Of a DNA stretch of 64,000 bases, positions 13,945 through 32,857 are shown one piece after another. Location: the NCBI GenBank assembly GCA_017938315.1, contig JAGBBV010000006.1, positions 1 to 64,000 of the forward strand. Reading direction: 5' to 3'. The position numbers and the translations under genes were made by a program. Under the pieces are notes generated by a model. It did no database searches and was not told where the DNA came from. It was given only the letters and a program-made list of their open reading frames with translations. The DNA comes from Lachnospiraceae bacterium. Its GTDB lineage: Bacteria; Bacillota; Clostridia; Lachnospirales; Lachnospiraceae. Every line of letters starts with the position of its first letter. The stretch's first letter is position 1.

Positions 13945-14448
13945 TTATTCATGGCTTAAAGTCTCCTCAATGTAGCTTCGGACCTCATCTTTAGACATAT
14001 CAAGCGCTATGGAAAATTCACCGTACAGATAATCTTCAGCCTGCTTAAAATATTTGCTGTCCACAGCAGTTACTTTACAGCCCTTCAAGATCCTCTTTTC
14101 TTTGCGCAGATAAATCGTCTTGATCAGTTTAATCCAGTCCTCGCAACTGTTTTGGTGGATATATTCTTTGTACGTCCGCTCCAAAGTTTTTTCATCGGCA
14201 AGAGGAATTAGGGGAATTTCCGGAATGGATTTGATTACAGCAAGAGCCTCATCCTTAGAAACGGCCTTACGCATAGTGGTGCCTGCGGTATCAACGGGCA
14301 CATAAACCGTACTTCCGGAAGCATAAACCGGCTTGAGAATATAGTATTTGCGGGTTTTATCAATACCGCTTAAATCTAACGTTGTGATGTCCGATACCAA
14401 GCATATTCCGTTACTTCCGCTAATTACATAATCACCAACTGCAAACAT
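13945..14448 (-). CDS. CarD-family transcription factor
   Basis: A 167-residue protein with the CarD/CdnL/TRCF RNA-polymerase-interacting domain at the N-terminus (FAVGDYVISGSNGICLVSDI) and the typical KYYILKPVYASGSTVYVPVD strand pair, then a helical DNA-binding C-terminal part (about 75-165). CarD proteins bind RNA polymerase beta and stabilise open promoter complexes. AAAGGAGGTAGC upstream on the minus strand fixes the ATG at 14448. A single-gene unit on the opposite strand to its neighbours. Confidence 0.88.
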   Translation of the reverse strand: MFAVGDYVISGSNGICLVSDITTLDLSGIDKTRKYYILKPVYASGSTVYVPVDTAGTTMRKAVSKDEALAVIKSIPEIPLIPLADEKTLERTYKEYIHQNSCEDWIKLIKTIYLRKEKRILKGCKVTAVDSKYFKQAEDYLYGEFSIALDMSKDEVRSYIEETLSHE

Positions 14449-14651
14449 TTGCTACCTCCTTTTTGCCATACTTTTATTTTAACAAAACAAAAATGAAAAT
14501 GTCAGCGCGAATTTCGCAAAATAAAAAAATCGGCAAATTGCCCACGTAAGGGCATCAGTTTATTGTGCAATTCTTTTGAAAGAATAGGAAAAATAAAGAA
14601 GATATGATAAAATTGAAGCAGACTTGTAGAAAATAAAGAGGATATATCGCA

Positions 14652-17330
14652 GTGGTTTTAGGAATATTGGCACATGTAGATGCAGGAAAAACAACTTTAT
14701 CGGAAGCAATGCTTTATGTAAGCGGAAATATCCGTAAGCTTGGAAGAGTGGATAATAGGGATGCTTTTTTGGACAATTATGAATTGGAGAGAAAAAGAGG
14801 TATTACAATTTTCTCAAAGCAGGCGGTGTTTTCCTATGCCGGGAAAAAGATAACCCTGCTTGATACGCCGGGACATGTTGACTTTTCCGCGGAAATGGAG
14901 CGTACATTACAAGTACTTGATGTGGCAGTACTTGTGGTAAGCGCCTCCGATGGTGTACAGGGGCATACCCGCACTTTATGGAGACTGCTGAAAAGATATG
15001 GGGTGCCCACATTTATATTTATTAATAAGATGGACATGCCGGACATAGATAAAGAAAAAATTATGTCTGAGCTTTCAGAGGAACTTGACAGCAGTTGTGT
15101 GGATTTCAGACAGGAAGATATTACAATTTTTTATGAAAATCTCGCCATGTGCGATGAGAAGATGATGAACAGCTTTCTGGATGGGGGAGAAATAGAAAAG
15201 GCAGATATCAAAAGGGCAATTAGGGAGCGAAAGGTGTTTCCCTGTTTTTTTGGCTCTGCTCTAAGACTGCAAGGGGTGGAAGAACTCCTCACAGGTCTTT
15301 CACAGTATCTAAGCGAACAAACATATCCGCAGCAGTTCGGTGCAAGAGTATTTAAGATAACAAGAGACAGCCAGGGAAACCGTCTGACACACCTTAAGAT
15401 AACAGGGGGATGCCTGAAAGCCAAGGAAGAACTTTCGGGCAAGGAGAGAGAGTCAGATACAGTGTGGACCGAGAAGGTAAACCAGATCAGACTTTATAAC
15501 GGAGAAAAATTTGAGCCGGTAAATGAAGCGGTGGCAGGAGAAGTTTATGCCATAACCGGTCTTACAAAAACTTATCCGGGACAAGGTCTTGGAACGGAAA
15601 AAGAAACGCTTCTTCCCAGTTTAGAACCGGTACTGAACTACCGGATTATTTTGCCTGAGGGAATGGATACGGCAGTGATGCTTCCGAAACTTCGGCTATT
15701 GGAAGAAGAAGACCCTATGCTGCAAATCGATTTTTTAGAGGAATTAAATGAAATCCATGCAAAAGTCATGGGGGATGTTCAGATAGAAGTACTGCAAAGC
15801 CTCATAAAGGAACGTTTTGGCGTGGAGGTTTCTTTTGGAGCGGGGAAAATTGTTTATAAAGAAACAATTGCATGTGAAGTAGAAGGGGTAGGGCATTTTG
15901 AGCCCTTGCGCCACTATGCGGAGGTTCATCTTTTATTGGAGCCTTTAGAATATGGAAGCGGTCTTATATTTGAGGCAGACTGCAGTGAAGATATGCTTTC
16001 CCGCAATTGGCAAAGATTGATACTAACCCATTTGGAAGAGAGGCAACATAGGGGAGTTCTGACCGGTTCGGTCATCACAGATATGAAGTTGACACTTGTG
16101 TCGGGAAAGGCCCACTTAAAGCATACAGAGGGCGGTGATTTTCGTCAGGCGACATATCGGGCGGTGCGTCAGGGCCTAATGGAGGCACAGTCAATTTTGC
16201 TGGAACCAATCTATGAGTTCCGGCTAGAGATACCGGATGAGTCAATTGGAAGGGCCATGACAGATGTAGAAAAAATGCATGGTAAGTGTACCTTGGAACA
16301 AAGGGGCGGTAAGATGGCATTACTTACAGGCACAGCGCCTGTAGTTACCATGCGGGATTATCAAAAGGAAGTGACTGCCTATACCAAAGGAGAAGGGAAA
16401 TTATCTCTTTCCTTAAAAGGATATGCACCATGTCATAATACAGAAGAAGTGATGGAAAGTATCGGATACAATCCTGAGCGGGATTTGCGGAACACGCCGG
16501 ATTCTGTTTTTTGTGCACATGGGGCAGGTTTTGTAGTGCCTTGGAACGAGGTAAAAGAGCACATGCATCTGGAAAGTTTTTTGGCACACACAGGGAAATG
16601 GGCAGAAGATGATTATCAGGATATTACAATTAGAAAGCATCCGGAAAGCACAGACGAGATGTTTATCGGTACAGAGGAAATTGACGCCATTTTAAATAAA
16701 ACTACTCATGCAAACAGCAGAAGAGATGGCAATAAAAAGAAAGAGGGCTGGCAGCGGGAGCATAGAAAAGGTACTTATCAAGAAAGCACAGGCTCTTCCG
16801 CCGTGACAAGAGTTTATAAAGGACAGGAAAAGAAGGAAAGTTACCTTCTTGTGGACGGATACAATATTATTTTTGCGTGGGATGATTTAATAGAACTTGC
16901 ACAGCACAATTTAGACAGTGCCAGAGGAAAACTTCTTGATATTCTATGTAATTATCAAGGGATGAAACACTGTCATCTGATTGCAGTTTTTGATGCTTAC
17001 AGGGTACAGGGACATCCTACAGAGATTTTGGATTATCATAATATTCATGTAGTTTATACTAAGGAAGCAGAAACCGCAGACCAATACATTGAAAAATTTG
17101 CCCATGAAAACGGTAAAAAGTATGACGTTACCGTGGCAACATCAGATGGACTTGAACAGATTATTATCAGAAGCCAGGGCTGCAGGCTTTTATCTGCACG
17201 GGACTTGCTGGAAGACATCAATTTTTTGAGCAAACAGCTTAAGGAAAACTACTTGGAAAAACAAACATCGCCTAAAAGATATCTTTTAGACGATGTGTCC
17301 GATGAAGTTAATAAATGGTTGTGGGATTGA
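14652..17330 (+). CDS. Tet(M)/EF-G-like ribosomal GTPase fused to a Rae1/YacP-type NYN ribonuclease
   Basis: An 892-residue fusion. Residues 1 to about 670 follow the ribosomal-protection GTPases: P-loop AHVDAGKTT (7-15), switch RKRGITIF, DTPGH (71-75), NKMD (about 125-128), FGSAL, then EF-G-like domains II-V. The domain IV tip, which in Tet(M) carries the drug-displacing YSPVST, here reads HLKHTEG (about 486-492), so tetracycline protection is doubtful. After a charged linker (about 680-728), residues 731-892 are a NYN/PIN-type nuclease: LLVDGYN (Asp735), VFDAY (Asp781), KEAETAD, VATSD (Asp832). These match B. subtilis Rae1 (YacP), which cuts mRNA in the ribosomal A site. The GTG start at 14652 follows AGAGG by ten bases. 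The function of the fusion is not known to me. Confidence 0.88.
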   Translation: MVLGILAHVDAGKTTLSEAMLYVSGNIRKLGRVDNRDAFLDNYELERKRGITIFSKQAVFSYAGKKITLLDTPGHVDFSAEMERTLQVLDVAVLVVSASDGVQGHTRTLWRLLKRYGVPTFIFINKMDMPDIDKEKIMSELSEELDSSCVDFRQEDITIFYENLAMCDEKMMNSFLDGGEIEKADIKRAIRERKVFPCFFGSALRLQGVEELLTGLSQYLSEQTYPQQFGARVFKITRDSQGNRLTHLKITGGCLKAKEELSGKERESDTVWTEKVNQIRLYNGEKFEPVNEAVAGEVYAITGLTKTYPGQGLGTEKETLLPSLEPVLNYRIILPEGMDTAVMLPKLRLLEEEDPMLQIDFLEELNEIHAKVMGDVQIEVLQSLIKERFGVEVSFGAGKIVYKETIACEVEGVGHFEPLRHYAEVHLLLEPLEYGSGLIFEADCSEDMLSRNWQRLILTHLEERQHRGVLTGSVITDMKLTLVSGKAHLKHTEGGDFRQATYRAVRQGLMEAQSILLEPIYEFRLEIPDESIGRAMTDVEKMHGKCTLEQRGGKMALLTGTAPVVTMRDYQKEVTAYTKGEGKLSLSLKGYAPCHNTEEVMESIGYNPERDLRNTPDSVFCAHGAGFVVPWNEVKEHMHLESFLAHTGKWAEDDYQDITIRKHPESTDEMFIGTEEIDAILNKTTHANSRRDGNKKKEGWQREHRKGTYQESTGSSAVTRVYKGQEKKESYLLVDGYNIIFAWDDLIELAQHNLDSARGKLLDILCNYQGMKHCHLIAVFDAYRVQGHPTEILDYHNIHVVYTKEAETADQYIEKFAHENGKKYDVTVATSDGLEQIIIRSQGCRLLSARDLLEDINFLSKQLKENYLEKQTSPKRYLLDDVSDEVNKWLWD

Positions 17331-30505: not shown

Positions 30506-30804
30506 TGTCAACAAAATAAAGATGTAAATGCAAAGAAGAGGAATAGTAACTCGATGTGGGAAATCAGAGAACTGCCGGGTGGTGCGAGGCAGTCAGTAAC
30601 AGAAAGTGAACTCACCTTGGAGCAGCCGGCTGAAGACCTGTTTATGCAAAGTATGGGTTGTGTAGGTGCGGACGGAGATTCCTGCCGTAGAATAGGAAGG
30701 ACATATCAGTGTCTGTGAGTGCACAGCGAAGCTGTGAAATAGAGTGGTACCGCGTAAGTAAATTGCGTCTCTATGAAATGGAAAACATTTCATAGAGATT
30801 TTTT
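30506..30804 (+). promoter_or_regulatory. Leucine T-box leader (tRNA-sensing riboswitch)
   Basis: The leader has the T-box core AGAGTGGTACCGCG (30741-30754), whose TGGT bulge pairs with the uncharged tRNA end, an AGTA motif near 30546-30549 in stem I, and a 3' terminator at 30768-30804. The best specifier candidate is CTC (30611-30613, in GTGAACTCACC), a leucine codon followed by A, which fits the leuA gene directly downstream. Uncharged tRNA-Leu would favour the antiterminator and switch leuA on. With its promoter it accounts for most of the 489-base gap between 30370 and 30860. Confidence 0.92.
30768..30804 (+). terminator. T-box terminator
   Basis: TCTCTATGAAATG (30768-30780) pairs perfectly with CATTTCATAGAGA (30786-30798) over GAAAA, followed by six T residues (30799-30804). 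The 5' side lies close to the T-box sequence that would form the competing antiterminator. Confidence 0.93.
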
Positions 30805-30859
30805 AATGTAATTTATTTTGTTTTCGTGTATGATAGAACAGAATGTGGAGGATGAAAAA

Positions 30860-32857
30860 ATGAATGTAGCACAGAAATACGGAAAATCCTATTTTATGCC
30901 CCCGGTGACAACCTATGACTGGGTGAAGAAGGATACAATTGACAAGGCACCTATCTGGTGTAGCGTAGATTTACGTGACGGAAACCAGGCACTCATTGAA
31001 CCTATGAGTTTGGAAGAAAAATTACAGTTTTTTGAGATGCTGGTAAAAATCGGATTTAAGGAAATTGAAGTGGGATTTCCTGCAGCATCCGAAACAGAGT
31101 ACAATTTTATCCGTGCTTTAATTGAGAGAAATATGATTCCTGAGGATGTAACCATTCAGGTGCTGACACAGGCAAGAGAACATATTATTAAGAAAACTTT
31201 CGAAGCAGTAAAGGGTGCCCCTCATGCCATTATACATTTGTACAATTCTACATCTGTGGCACAGAGAGAACAGGTTTTCAGAAAGAGTAAGGAAGAGGTA
31301 AAGCAGATTGCCATCGACGGTGCAAAATTATTGAAGAAACTGGCCGATGAAACTGACGGTAACTTTACCTTTGAATACAGCCCGGAAAGTTTCCCGGGAA
31401 CAGAAGTGGACTATGCCCTTGATGTATGTAATGCAGTGCTGGATGTTTGGAAACCGGTGAAGGAAAATAAGGTAATTATTAATATTCCTACAACGGTACA
31501 GATTGCTATGCCTCATGTATTTGCTTGTCAGGTGGAATATTTCCATAAAAATTTAAAATACAGAGATGCTGTAAATATCAGCGTGCATCCTCATAATGAC
31601 AGAGGCTGCGGTGTCAGCGATGCAGAACTTGGAGTTCTTGCAGGGGCTGACAGGGTGGAAGGTACTTTGTTCGGAAACGGAGAGAGAACCGGTAACGTAG
31701 ATATTATCACGGTAGCTATGAATATGATTTGTCATGGCGTGGAGTCAGGACTTGATTTTACCAACATTACGGAAATCCGTGAAGTTTATGAAACACTTAC
31801 GGGAATGAAGGTTTATGAGCGTACACCTTATGCCGGAGACCTTGTATTTACAGCTTTTTCAGGGTCCCATCAGGATGCTATATCCAAGGGAATGGCATGG
31901 TGGAAAGAAGGAAAGAGCGACGGTCGCTGGGATGTTCCCTATCTTCCCATTGATCCTCAGGATTTGGGCCGTGAATATGAATCCGATGTTATCCGTATTA
32001 ACAGCCAGTCCGGCAAGGGTGGAATTGCCTTTATCTTAAAGCAGAACTTTGGAATGTCACTTCCTGATAAGATGAAAGAAGAAGTGGGCTATCTGATGAA
32101 GAGTGTTTCTGATAAGAAGCATAGTGAGCTTGCCCCTTCTGATGTTTATCAGATTTTCAAGGATAATTATATTGACCAGAGAGAAATCTTCAATATTCCG
32201 GAATGTCACTTTAAACAAGTAGAAGGAGGCATTACCGCGGAAGTAACCATTGAGCAGAATAAGGAAAGAAGAGTGATTGAAACTTCCGGTAACGGTCGTC
32301 TGGATGCGGTCAGCAATGCAGTGAAACTGTATTTCGGCATCAGCTATGAACTGTCTGTTTATGAAGAACATGCGGTGTCCAGAGGATCCTCTTCCAAGGC
32401 GGCAGCCTATGTGGGTATTGTGAAAGACGGAAAAATGTACTGGGGCGTTGGAATTGACGAGGATATTATTAAGAGCTCCATTGCAGCACTTGTTTCTGCA
32501 GGGAATAAACTGGCACAAAGTGAGAATATTAAAGAAGGCAGGGAAGAGCGTATCGTTGACATCATGAATTATGTGAGAAATCACTATAAGGATGTTACAC
32601 TGGATGACCTTGCGGACAATTTTAATTTGTCCAAACCTTATTTATCCAAATATATCAAGGAAAATGCCGGAATCACTTTCCAGGAGGCAGTAAAGAAGGC
32701 AAGAATGAAAAAGGCAAGAGCGATGTTAAAAGAGTCCAATCAGACAGTGGAAAGCATTGCAGCTTATGTAGGATATGAAAATGTAGAACACTTTAACCGT
32801 TTGTTTAAGAAATCATACGGAATGACACCCATTCAGTTCCGAAGAGAAAGCAGATAA
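30860..32857 (+). CDS. leuA: 2-Isopropylmalate synthase fused to an AraC-type DNA-binding domain
   Basis: A 665-residue fusion. Residues about 1-550 are a long-form LeuA that condenses acetyl-CoA with 2-ketoisovalerate: VDLRDGNQA (catalytic Arg-Asp), metal ligands in [21 protein letters not shown], and a LeuA-type C-terminal region (about 430-550) where leucine feedback is expected. Residues about 560-665 are a complete AraC/XylS DNA-binding domain with two helix-turn-helix units ([21 protein letters not shown] and [20 protein letters not shown]). The ATG at 30860 follows GGAGGATG; upstream in-frame starts are too near the terminator. Controlled by a leucine T-box. The DNA target is unknown. 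Confidence 0.93.

Follow-up and report, generated by a model that had tools for sequence, protein, structure and literature searches.

Introduction

What is a ribonuclease of the Rae1 family doing at the end of a translational GTPase, and what has become of the free enzyme in genomes that encode such a protein? The question is raised by one gene in a stretch of 64,000 nucleotides from a Lachnospiraceae bacterium (assembly GCA_017938315.1, contig JAGBBV010000006.1, positions 1 to 64,000 of the forward strand), which was analysed as a whole and is termed the window here. The gene (14652-17330, + strand) encodes a protein of 892 amino acids (aa) that was found by Pfam profile search to comprise an EF-G/Tet-like translational GTPase followed by a C-terminal NYN_YacP domain. 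An earlier reading of the window, made from its letters without database searches (the sequence-only reading), had described the protein as a self-contained factor that may recognise stalled or drug-bound ribosomes and cleave their messenger RNA (mRNA). The analysis presented here points, with a probability of roughly 55%, to a Rae1 tethered to a GTPase, which would cut mRNA on stalled ribosomes and would have replaced the free Rae1 enzyme. Rae1 of Bacillus subtilis, whose gene is co-transcribed with yacO/rlmB, has been described as an enzyme of the ribosomal A site that cuts mRNA in a translation-dependent manner (PMC6613710, PMC12320835, PMC10100781).

The architecture itself is already known, and the novelty lies elsewhere. 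A short remark in an earlier study records the gain of a YacP-like NYN domain by the Tet proteins of ten clostridial species, and suggests a ribonuclease-based resistance (Atkinson 2015, PMC4342817). The window protein falls within the definition of such a fusion, namely a clostridial protein in which a YacP-like NYN domain follows a Tet/EF-G-like translational GTPase (trGTPase); the domain order and the group of organisms are the same, and it very probably belongs to the same family. No later work on the fusion was found in the open-access literature searched, which was covered in part and at the level of titles and abstracts, with subscription journals lying outside it. Whereas the earlier remark classed these proteins with Tet resistance, what is added here, as far as the literature was searched, is an essentially single origin, a separate GTPase clade with loops of its own, the replacement of yacP with an emptied slot, and the match to the active-site residues of Rae1.

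The nuclease half belongs to the Rae1 family

Kinship of the C-terminal domain with Rae1/YacP had been proposed from an alignment by eye and is borne out by profile search. The NYN_YacP family (PF05991) matches with 168.7 bits against a cut-off of 24.6 (E = 1.4e-49) over profile positions 1-158 of 166, and comparison of the NYN half with B. subtilis Rae1/YacP (PDB 5mq8) gives an E-value of 3.9e-23. Beyond membership of the family, the window protein and Rae1 (PDB 5mq8, 5mq9) have four aspartates in common: D735, D781, D810 and D832 correspond to D7, D53, D81 and D104 of Rae1, which we take to be its acidic active site. The sequence-only reading had singled out D735 and D781, and both are conserved in 49-50 of 50 fused domains, the single gap being a row for D735 that was clipped during extraction and in whose sequence the aspartate is present; D810 and D832 are present in all 50, and D810 belongs beside the two singled out (Table 1). 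Neither of two outcomes that the sequence-only reading had named as refuting it, a missing NYN match and a loss of the conserved aspartates, was found. The two proteins differ in that B. subtilis Rae1 is a free protein (a chain of 181 residues in the PDB), whereas in the window the NYN domain is the tail of a GTPase and is encoded at a different place in the genome.

A single clade in the tree of 96 NYN domains (bootstrap/SH-aLRT 100/99, SH-aLRT being the Shimodaira-Hasegawa-like approximate likelihood ratio test) holds 49 of the 50 fused domains together with three free ones, and this points to an essentially single origin of the fused nuclease; the remaining fused domain (G198) lies outside the clade on a long branch. 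Of the three free domains inside it (G140, G209 and G225), two adjoin sigH, and that of G140 (locus L134), a genome of the window's own order, lies in a complete cysS-mrnC-rlmB-yacP-sigH cluster. The native yacP of that order is thus suggested as the probable source of the fused domain. Simple fission was considered as the origin of the three free domains and was set aside, since the two beside sigH are probably native genes. G209, where the NYN domain is free though within the fused clade and the lone GTPase of the genome belongs to another lineage, is left as the only likely separation from a fusion.

The fusion is neither a chance event nor an accident of assembly, because the best 80 of at least 591 relatives found in a scan of genome contigs all align to residue 849 or beyond, that is, into the NYN domain. 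The frame is broken in one of these 80 (L233), and their records are named Lachnospiraceae, Oscillospiraceae, Anaerovorax, Fusibacter and Intestinimonas, among others. These 80 were chosen by a fused query and so give no measure of how frequent the fusion is; frequencies were taken from the draws of genomes described below.

Fused and free YacP nearly exclude each other

Frequency was assessed in 393 genomes of the window's class with a completeness of at least 90%. A PF05991 match was found in 250 of them and none in the other 143, from which it is plain that the NYN_YacP domain is dispensable in some genomes. The domain is fused in 136 genomes and free in 114, and one genome (G284) has both. 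A domain was counted as fused when the PF05991 match lay in a frame longer than 800 aa, or the GTPase match in a frame longer than 780 aa (130 genomes; in four of them, G014, G029, G062 and G190, a stop falls within the match or at its end); a further six genomes (G044, G156, G172, G185, G235 and G295) hold broken or contig-edge pieces of both parts. G261, with a match of only 19 residues at a contig end, was placed in neither class, and three duplicate or truncated copies (L032, L078 and L119) were left out of the counts. Among 398 genomes drawn from the phylum, 20 of other classes have a fused-length frame and six a lone GTPase frame.

Free YacP is present in only one of the 136 fused genomes, against 113 of the 257 others; the single genome with both among 393 compares with about 39 expected if the two were independent (Fisher p 1.6e-24, uncorrected for kinship). 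Kinship was taken into account through a tree of RlmB, which yields nine independent pairs with and without the fusion across supported branches: in 6.4 of these on average free YacP differed in the opposite direction, and in none did it differ in the same direction (median p 0.03, range 0.016-0.063). The tree comprised 47 genomes chosen by hand, without G225, which has no rlmB on its stretch; because the choice was not random, the test is read as modest support for exclusion and not as proof.

GTPases of the same clade that lack the nuclease (lone GTPases) occur in 27 of the 393 genomes, a count that excludes a broken lone-type GTPase in two frames in G203. Free YacP accompanies the lone GTPase in 21 of the 27, YacP is missing from six, and the fusion is missing from all; in G225 the lone GTPase is an open frame of 669 aa. 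Because one protein unites both parts in other genomes, lone GTPase and free YacP are likely to be functionally linked. G106 encodes two lone GTPases of the clade (L286, L304) in addition to free YacP.

In genomes with the fusion only, yacP is missing from its usual place

Free yacP typically belongs to a cysS-mrnC-rlmB-yacP-sigH cluster, and rlmB and sigH flank it in 19 of 21 loci picked by hand from the 114. The window's genome (97% complete, 40 contigs) has the gene order cysE-cysS-mrnC-rlmB-[GDSL hydrolase]-sigH, with cysE read by eye and with no yacP; no second PF05991 match was found anywhere in that assembly, which answers the question of a separate yacP gene that the sequence-only reading had raised. 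The fusion gene itself sits outside the cluster. When the surroundings of rlmB were compared in 27 further genomes, 20 of them with the fusion only, no NYN gene was found between rlmB and sigH in any of the ten fusion-only genomes in which both neighbours could be read; in the other ten no sigH is seen on the stretch and the slot is not readable. G284, with both forms, has an NYN gene in the slot, and G051, with free YacP, likewise.

Base-level comparison of four pairs of genomes localises the difference. In three pairs (G047/G206, G314/G051 and G238/G284) the flanks are collinear and the difference falls in the stretch between rlmB and sigH, which measures 560 bases in G206 and 137 in G047; G238 and G284 both carry the fusion, yet differ by the slot stretch. 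In the simplest reading, the fused gene would have arrived first and free yacP would have been lost afterwards, with G284 caught between the two states. That the fusion does the job of Rae1 is suggested by the mutual exclusion of fused and free YacP together with a slot that lacks yacP, and it is the best supported step of the argument. The description of the protein as a self-contained ribosome nuclease gains support from this apparent replacement.

The gene that stands between rlmB and sigH in the window's genome encodes a GDSL hydrolase of 444 aa (L311:4814-6148, contig C8). A related GDSL gene lies about 0.8 kb downstream of rlmB in a close relative (G384).

The GTPase half is distinct from Tet(M) and EF-G

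The motifs of both enzymes are intact: AHVDAGKTT, DTPGH and NKMD in the GTPase and LLVDGYN, VFDAY, ETAD and VATSD in the nuclease are all present, as had been read from the letters, and the open reading frame (ORF) runs from 14652 to 17330 exactly as given then. Among 73 relatives, counted with fused and lone GTPases together, the nucleotide-site residues D10, K13, T14, D71, H75, N125, K126 and D128 are invariant. The same genome encodes a proper EF-G on contig C16 (1125 bits) and an EF-G paralogue on C15 (627.5 bits), besides further trGTPase matches that were read from score and length as RF3, TypA and LepA. The window GTPase reaches 302.6 bits with the EF-G model, for which the cut-off is 659.4, and is not scored as EF-G; judged from these scores it is an extra factor beside the EF-G of the genome.

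The same holds for the tetracycline resistance proteins. The best NCBIfam model is tet_protect, with 425 bits against a cut-off of 775 (the M_W model gives 284 against 1100), and five relatives, two fused and three lone, score 393-460 bits against the same 775. Likeness to Tet(M), Tet(O) and Tet(W) extends to the EF-G-like GTPase plan and to about 30% identity over residues 3-593, and the best PDB match is Tet(M) with 258.7 bits. In a tree of 85 sequences built by a quick method, with SH-aLRT but no bootstrap values, 42 fused and 31 lone GTPases nevertheless form one clade (SH-aLRT 100, branch 1.4) apart from Tet(M)/Tet(W). The loops of domain IV differ as well: fused and lone GTPases alike have GHFEPLRHYAEV and H.KHTEGGDFR where Tet(M) has HIEVPPNPFWAS and YYSPVSTPADFR, and EF-G differs again. 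In the tip loop, T492 is found in 73 of 73 sequences, H491 and G494 in 72 each and K490 in 71. At the tip of domain IV of Tet(M), the YSPVST loop displaces tetracycline. The alignment agrees with the earlier observation that HLKHTEG stands in its place; displacement of the drug by domain IV loops is described for Tet proteins in PMC4342817. A C-terminal extension (residues 590-641) is common to fused and lone GTPases and missing from Tet(M), and its residues C594, C621 and H639 may form a metal site. Judged by sequence, a score of 425 against 775 bits, a clade of its own and unlike domain IV loops place the GTPase outside the Tet(M)-type protection proteins. Of the earlier label 'Tet(M)/EF-G type', the EF-G-like domains stand, and the Tet(M) type gives way to a separate clade with nuclease-free members as well; the statement that the gene is not a resistance gene holds on the level of sequence.

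Within this clade the fused GTPases cluster as a subclade (support 99) that is nested among the lone ones, and two lone GTPases, from a viral contig (L234) and a Ligilactobacillus megaplasmid, fall inside the fused subclade; this suggests that the NYN domain joined a pre-existing lone GTPase and was later lost at least once. The lone proteins, which are also found on L. salivarius megaplasmids, are 42-50% identical to the fusion and share its loops and its C-terminal extension; they differ from it in lacking the NYN domain and are about 640-730 aa long. On the viral contigs L234 and L235 a lone GTPase of the clade, of 726 aa with an insertion, lies at the extreme contig edge, and its nuclease was probably lost in L234, since that sequence sits inside the fused clade.

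Two further groups of trGTPases were seen. One is another clostridial Tet-like group (L297-L301) with YTMPKPCWA in the domain IV loop, which belongs in the tree neither to Tet(M) nor to the fusion clade. The other comprises trGTPase-like proteins on viral contigs of up to 359 kb (L251, L253-L261, L263, L264, L271, L274-L276 and L278-L280), with 23-27% identity to the window protein from residue 3 to about 600.

A proposed mechanism and the points against it

The two halves are joined by a linker of variable length. The spacing between the FC motif and DGYN, measured in 136 of 146 fused sequences, is 88-172 aa with a median of 104; the ten others lack the literal motifs and were left out, and a few genes are counted twice among the 146. 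One short motif is conserved in the linker, EL..IFERTYG in many relatives and EEIDAILNKTTH in the window protein. Such a tether would in principle be long enough for the nuclease to reach the decoding region.

Domain IV of EF-G-like GTPases enters the ribosomal A site. By analogy with B. subtilis Rae1 the nuclease would act there too, and a cycle can be proposed in which the GTPase, in its GTP form, binds the factor site of the ribosome and domain IV, which has conserved tip loops peculiar to the clade, moves into or probes the A site of a paused ribosome. Hydrolysis of GTP would let domain IV withdraw, whereupon the NYN domain, on a tether of roughly 90-170 residues, would cut the mRNA at or close to the vacated A site; the cut would start decay of the mRNA, and rescue of the ribosome could begin. 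The nuclease might instead cut on a neighbouring stalled ribosome, and the sequential order is preferred to this. Gating of the nuclease by the GTPase is the weakest step of the proposal. A wider form is put forward only tentatively: that GTP hydrolysis sets the moment at which domain IV yields the A site to the NYN domain, with cutting confined to the mRNA of ribosomes that do not move; that the fused gene became widespread in Clostridia and their relatives and ousted free Rae1 repeatedly, turning Rae1 into a quality-control step under the control of GTP in these bacteria; and that the lone GTPase is an unrecognised partner of free Rae1 in other Clostridia.

Several observations weigh against a GTPase-tethered Rae1 that replaced the free enzyme. 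Domain IV and a Rae1-like domain cannot share the A site, and therefore the fused protein must act in turn and a hand-over has to be assumed. The exclusion of fused and free YacP partly reflects clade structure, the tree-corrected test being modest and its genomes not a random draw. The 143 genomes without any PF05991 match show that yacP has also been lost without a fusion, so that loss need not mean replacement, and the six genomes that keep a lone GTPase without any YacP indicate that the GTPase is useful without the nuclease; 14 of the 21 genomes with lone GTPase and free YacP belong to one family (f37). The slot, too, is not uniform: free yacP lies outside it in G209 and G225 (of the 21 loci), and the NYN gene of G072, a genome with free YacP, is about 1.9 kb from rlmB. 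The fourth pair compared at base level, G018/G072, aligned in rlmB only and is uninformative about the slot.

Alternative explanations

Three other accounts of the protein can be given. The two activities might be independent and merely carried on one chain, the NYN domain being an ordinary Rae1 and the GTPase having another role, with equal amounts produced and no mechanical coupling. The length and variability of the linker would suit this, as would the existence of both free Rae1 and lone GTPases and the case of G209, in which an NYN domain from the fused clade is free beside a lone GTPase of another lineage. The explanation is nonetheless judged unlikely, given that the long fused frame is maintained in 130 of the 393 class genomes and across many families, with the nuclease residues kept, and that the linker carries a conserved motif. 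Protection of the ribosome against tetracycline or another drug, in which the GTPase would remove the drug and the nuclease help by cutting RNA, was suggested by Atkinson (2015, PMC4342817), and it draws on the overall EF-G/Tet architecture, on Tet(M) and tet_protect as the best PDB and NCBIfam matches and on a fused Agathobacter relative that is annotated as 'TetM/TetW/TetO/TetS family'. The shortfall of the window protein and of the five relatives from the tet_protect cut-off, the long branch that separates the clade from Tet(M)/Tet(W), the conservation of K490 and T492 where Tet(M) has YSPVST and the presence of the fusion in many families make this quite improbable. So do its surroundings: no gene family was found adjacent to the fusion at more than 9 of the 81 loci (flanks of up to 5 kb, shorter at contig ends), and nothing in them points to operon partners or to a conserved neighbour of mobile or resistance type, an absence which fits a self-contained factor.

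It might also be that the nuclease cuts ribosomal RNA (rRNA) or transfer RNA (tRNA), in processing or decay, and that the GTPase brings it to ribosomes or their precursors. Free yacP adjoins rlmB and mrnC, which are genes for the modification and processing of 23S rRNA. A role of the YacP-like domain in rRNA/tRNA maturation was predicted in 2006, as cited in PMC4342817. This is considered very unlikely, the only member of the family to have been studied, B. subtilis Rae1, being described as cutting mRNA in translation. A GTPase-tethered Rae1 in place of the free enzyme is preferred to all three.

The gene and its surroundings

The coordinates of the features of the fusion gene are collected in Table 1. 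An in-frame TAA at 14634-14636 leaves no alternative standard start codon further upstream of the GTG at 14652, and the one reverse-strand frame that was translated over the gene contains many stops. Upstream there is a weak terminator-like hairpin (14539-14554), and just beyond, on the opposite strand and divergent, a gene for a protein with a CarD/TRCF-RID domain (13945-14448, - strand). An Rfam scan of the window found no family near the fusion gene. The sole match at gathering score is a T-box leader (RF00230, 99.5 bits, 30524-30775, + strand), directly upstream of an ORF of 679 aa (30818-32857).

Table 1. Position, strand and supporting evidence for features of the fusion gene; residues are those of the 892-aa product.
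Feature	Position	Strand	Basis
Shine-Dalgarno-like AAAGAGG, 10 nt before GTG	14635..14641	+	sequence read; function inferred
Whole fusion gene, 892 aa, GTG start	14652..17330	+	ORF translation
GTPase (G) domain, residues 3-221	14658..15314	+	PF00009 1.1e-53; AHVDAGKTT, DTPGH, NKMD
EF-G-like domain II, residues 229-306	15336..15569	+	PF22042, 25.4 bits, slightly below family cut-off of 27
EF-G-like domain III, residues 325-396	15624..15839	+	PF14492
EF-G-like domain IV, residues 398-513	15843..16190	+	PF03764
Domain IV loop GVGHFEPLRHYAEV, residues 412-425	15885..15926	+	clade signature; H415, Y422, E424 in 73/73
Domain IV tip loop HLKHTEGGDFR, residues 488-498	16113..16145	+	aligned to Tet(M) YYSPVST
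EF-G-like domain V, residues 516-596	16197..16439	+	PF00679 1.5e-18
C-terminal extension GY.PCHN...DSVFC.HGAG..V.W....MH, residues 590-641	16419..16574	+	C594 in 73/73, C621 and H639 in 69/73
Linker of variable length, residues 642-728	16575..16835	+	FC-to-DGYN spacing across fused sequences
Conserved linker motif EEIDAILNKTTH, residues 675-686	16674..16709	+	E676 and I680 in at least 90% of 48 sequences
NYN_YacP (Rae1-like) nuclease domain, residues 732-887	16845..17312	+	PF05991 1.4e-49; PDB 5mq8 3.9e-23
D735, equivalent of Rae1 D7	16854..16856	+	49/50 fused, 45/45 free NYN domains
D781, equivalent of Rae1 D53	16992..16994	+	50/50 fused, 45/45 free
D810, equivalent of Rae1 D81	17079..17081	+	50/50 fused, 45/45 free
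D832, equivalent of Rae1 D104	17145..17147	+	50/50 fused, 45/45 free

Two special origins were considered for the gene. As an anti-phage defence system it was rejected, no PADLOC-DB family being matched at E 0.001. Full-length fusions are present in two human faecal records named 'Bacteriophage sp.' (MT835514.1, here L144, and MT835563.1), and an origin in phages was rejected in turn on the reading of one of them: L144, which is flagged UNVERIFIED, carries rsmH, gltX and feoB beside the fusion (by-eye reading of its ORFs), and because these are ordinary chromosomal genes the record looks like mis-assigned bacterial DNA.

In public annotation, a fused protein of Agathobacter rectalis (L146) and a lone one of L. 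salivarius (L147) are named TetM/TetW/TetO/TetS-family tetracycline resistance proteins. The Monoglobus relative is termed a 'translation factor GTPase family protein'.

Implications

Such labels matter for surveys of resistance genes: the window protein and five scored relatives, a set that does not include the annotated Agathobacter and L. salivarius proteins, lie well below the cut-offs. Little is known of mRNA cutting on stalled ribosomes outside Escherichia coli and B. subtilis. If the proposal is right, about one-third of the class (136 of the 393 genomes sampled) would use a GTPase-tethered Rae1, and the occurrence of the two parts free, fused and single in close relatives would amount to a natural experiment in how a nuclease reaches the ribosomal A site.

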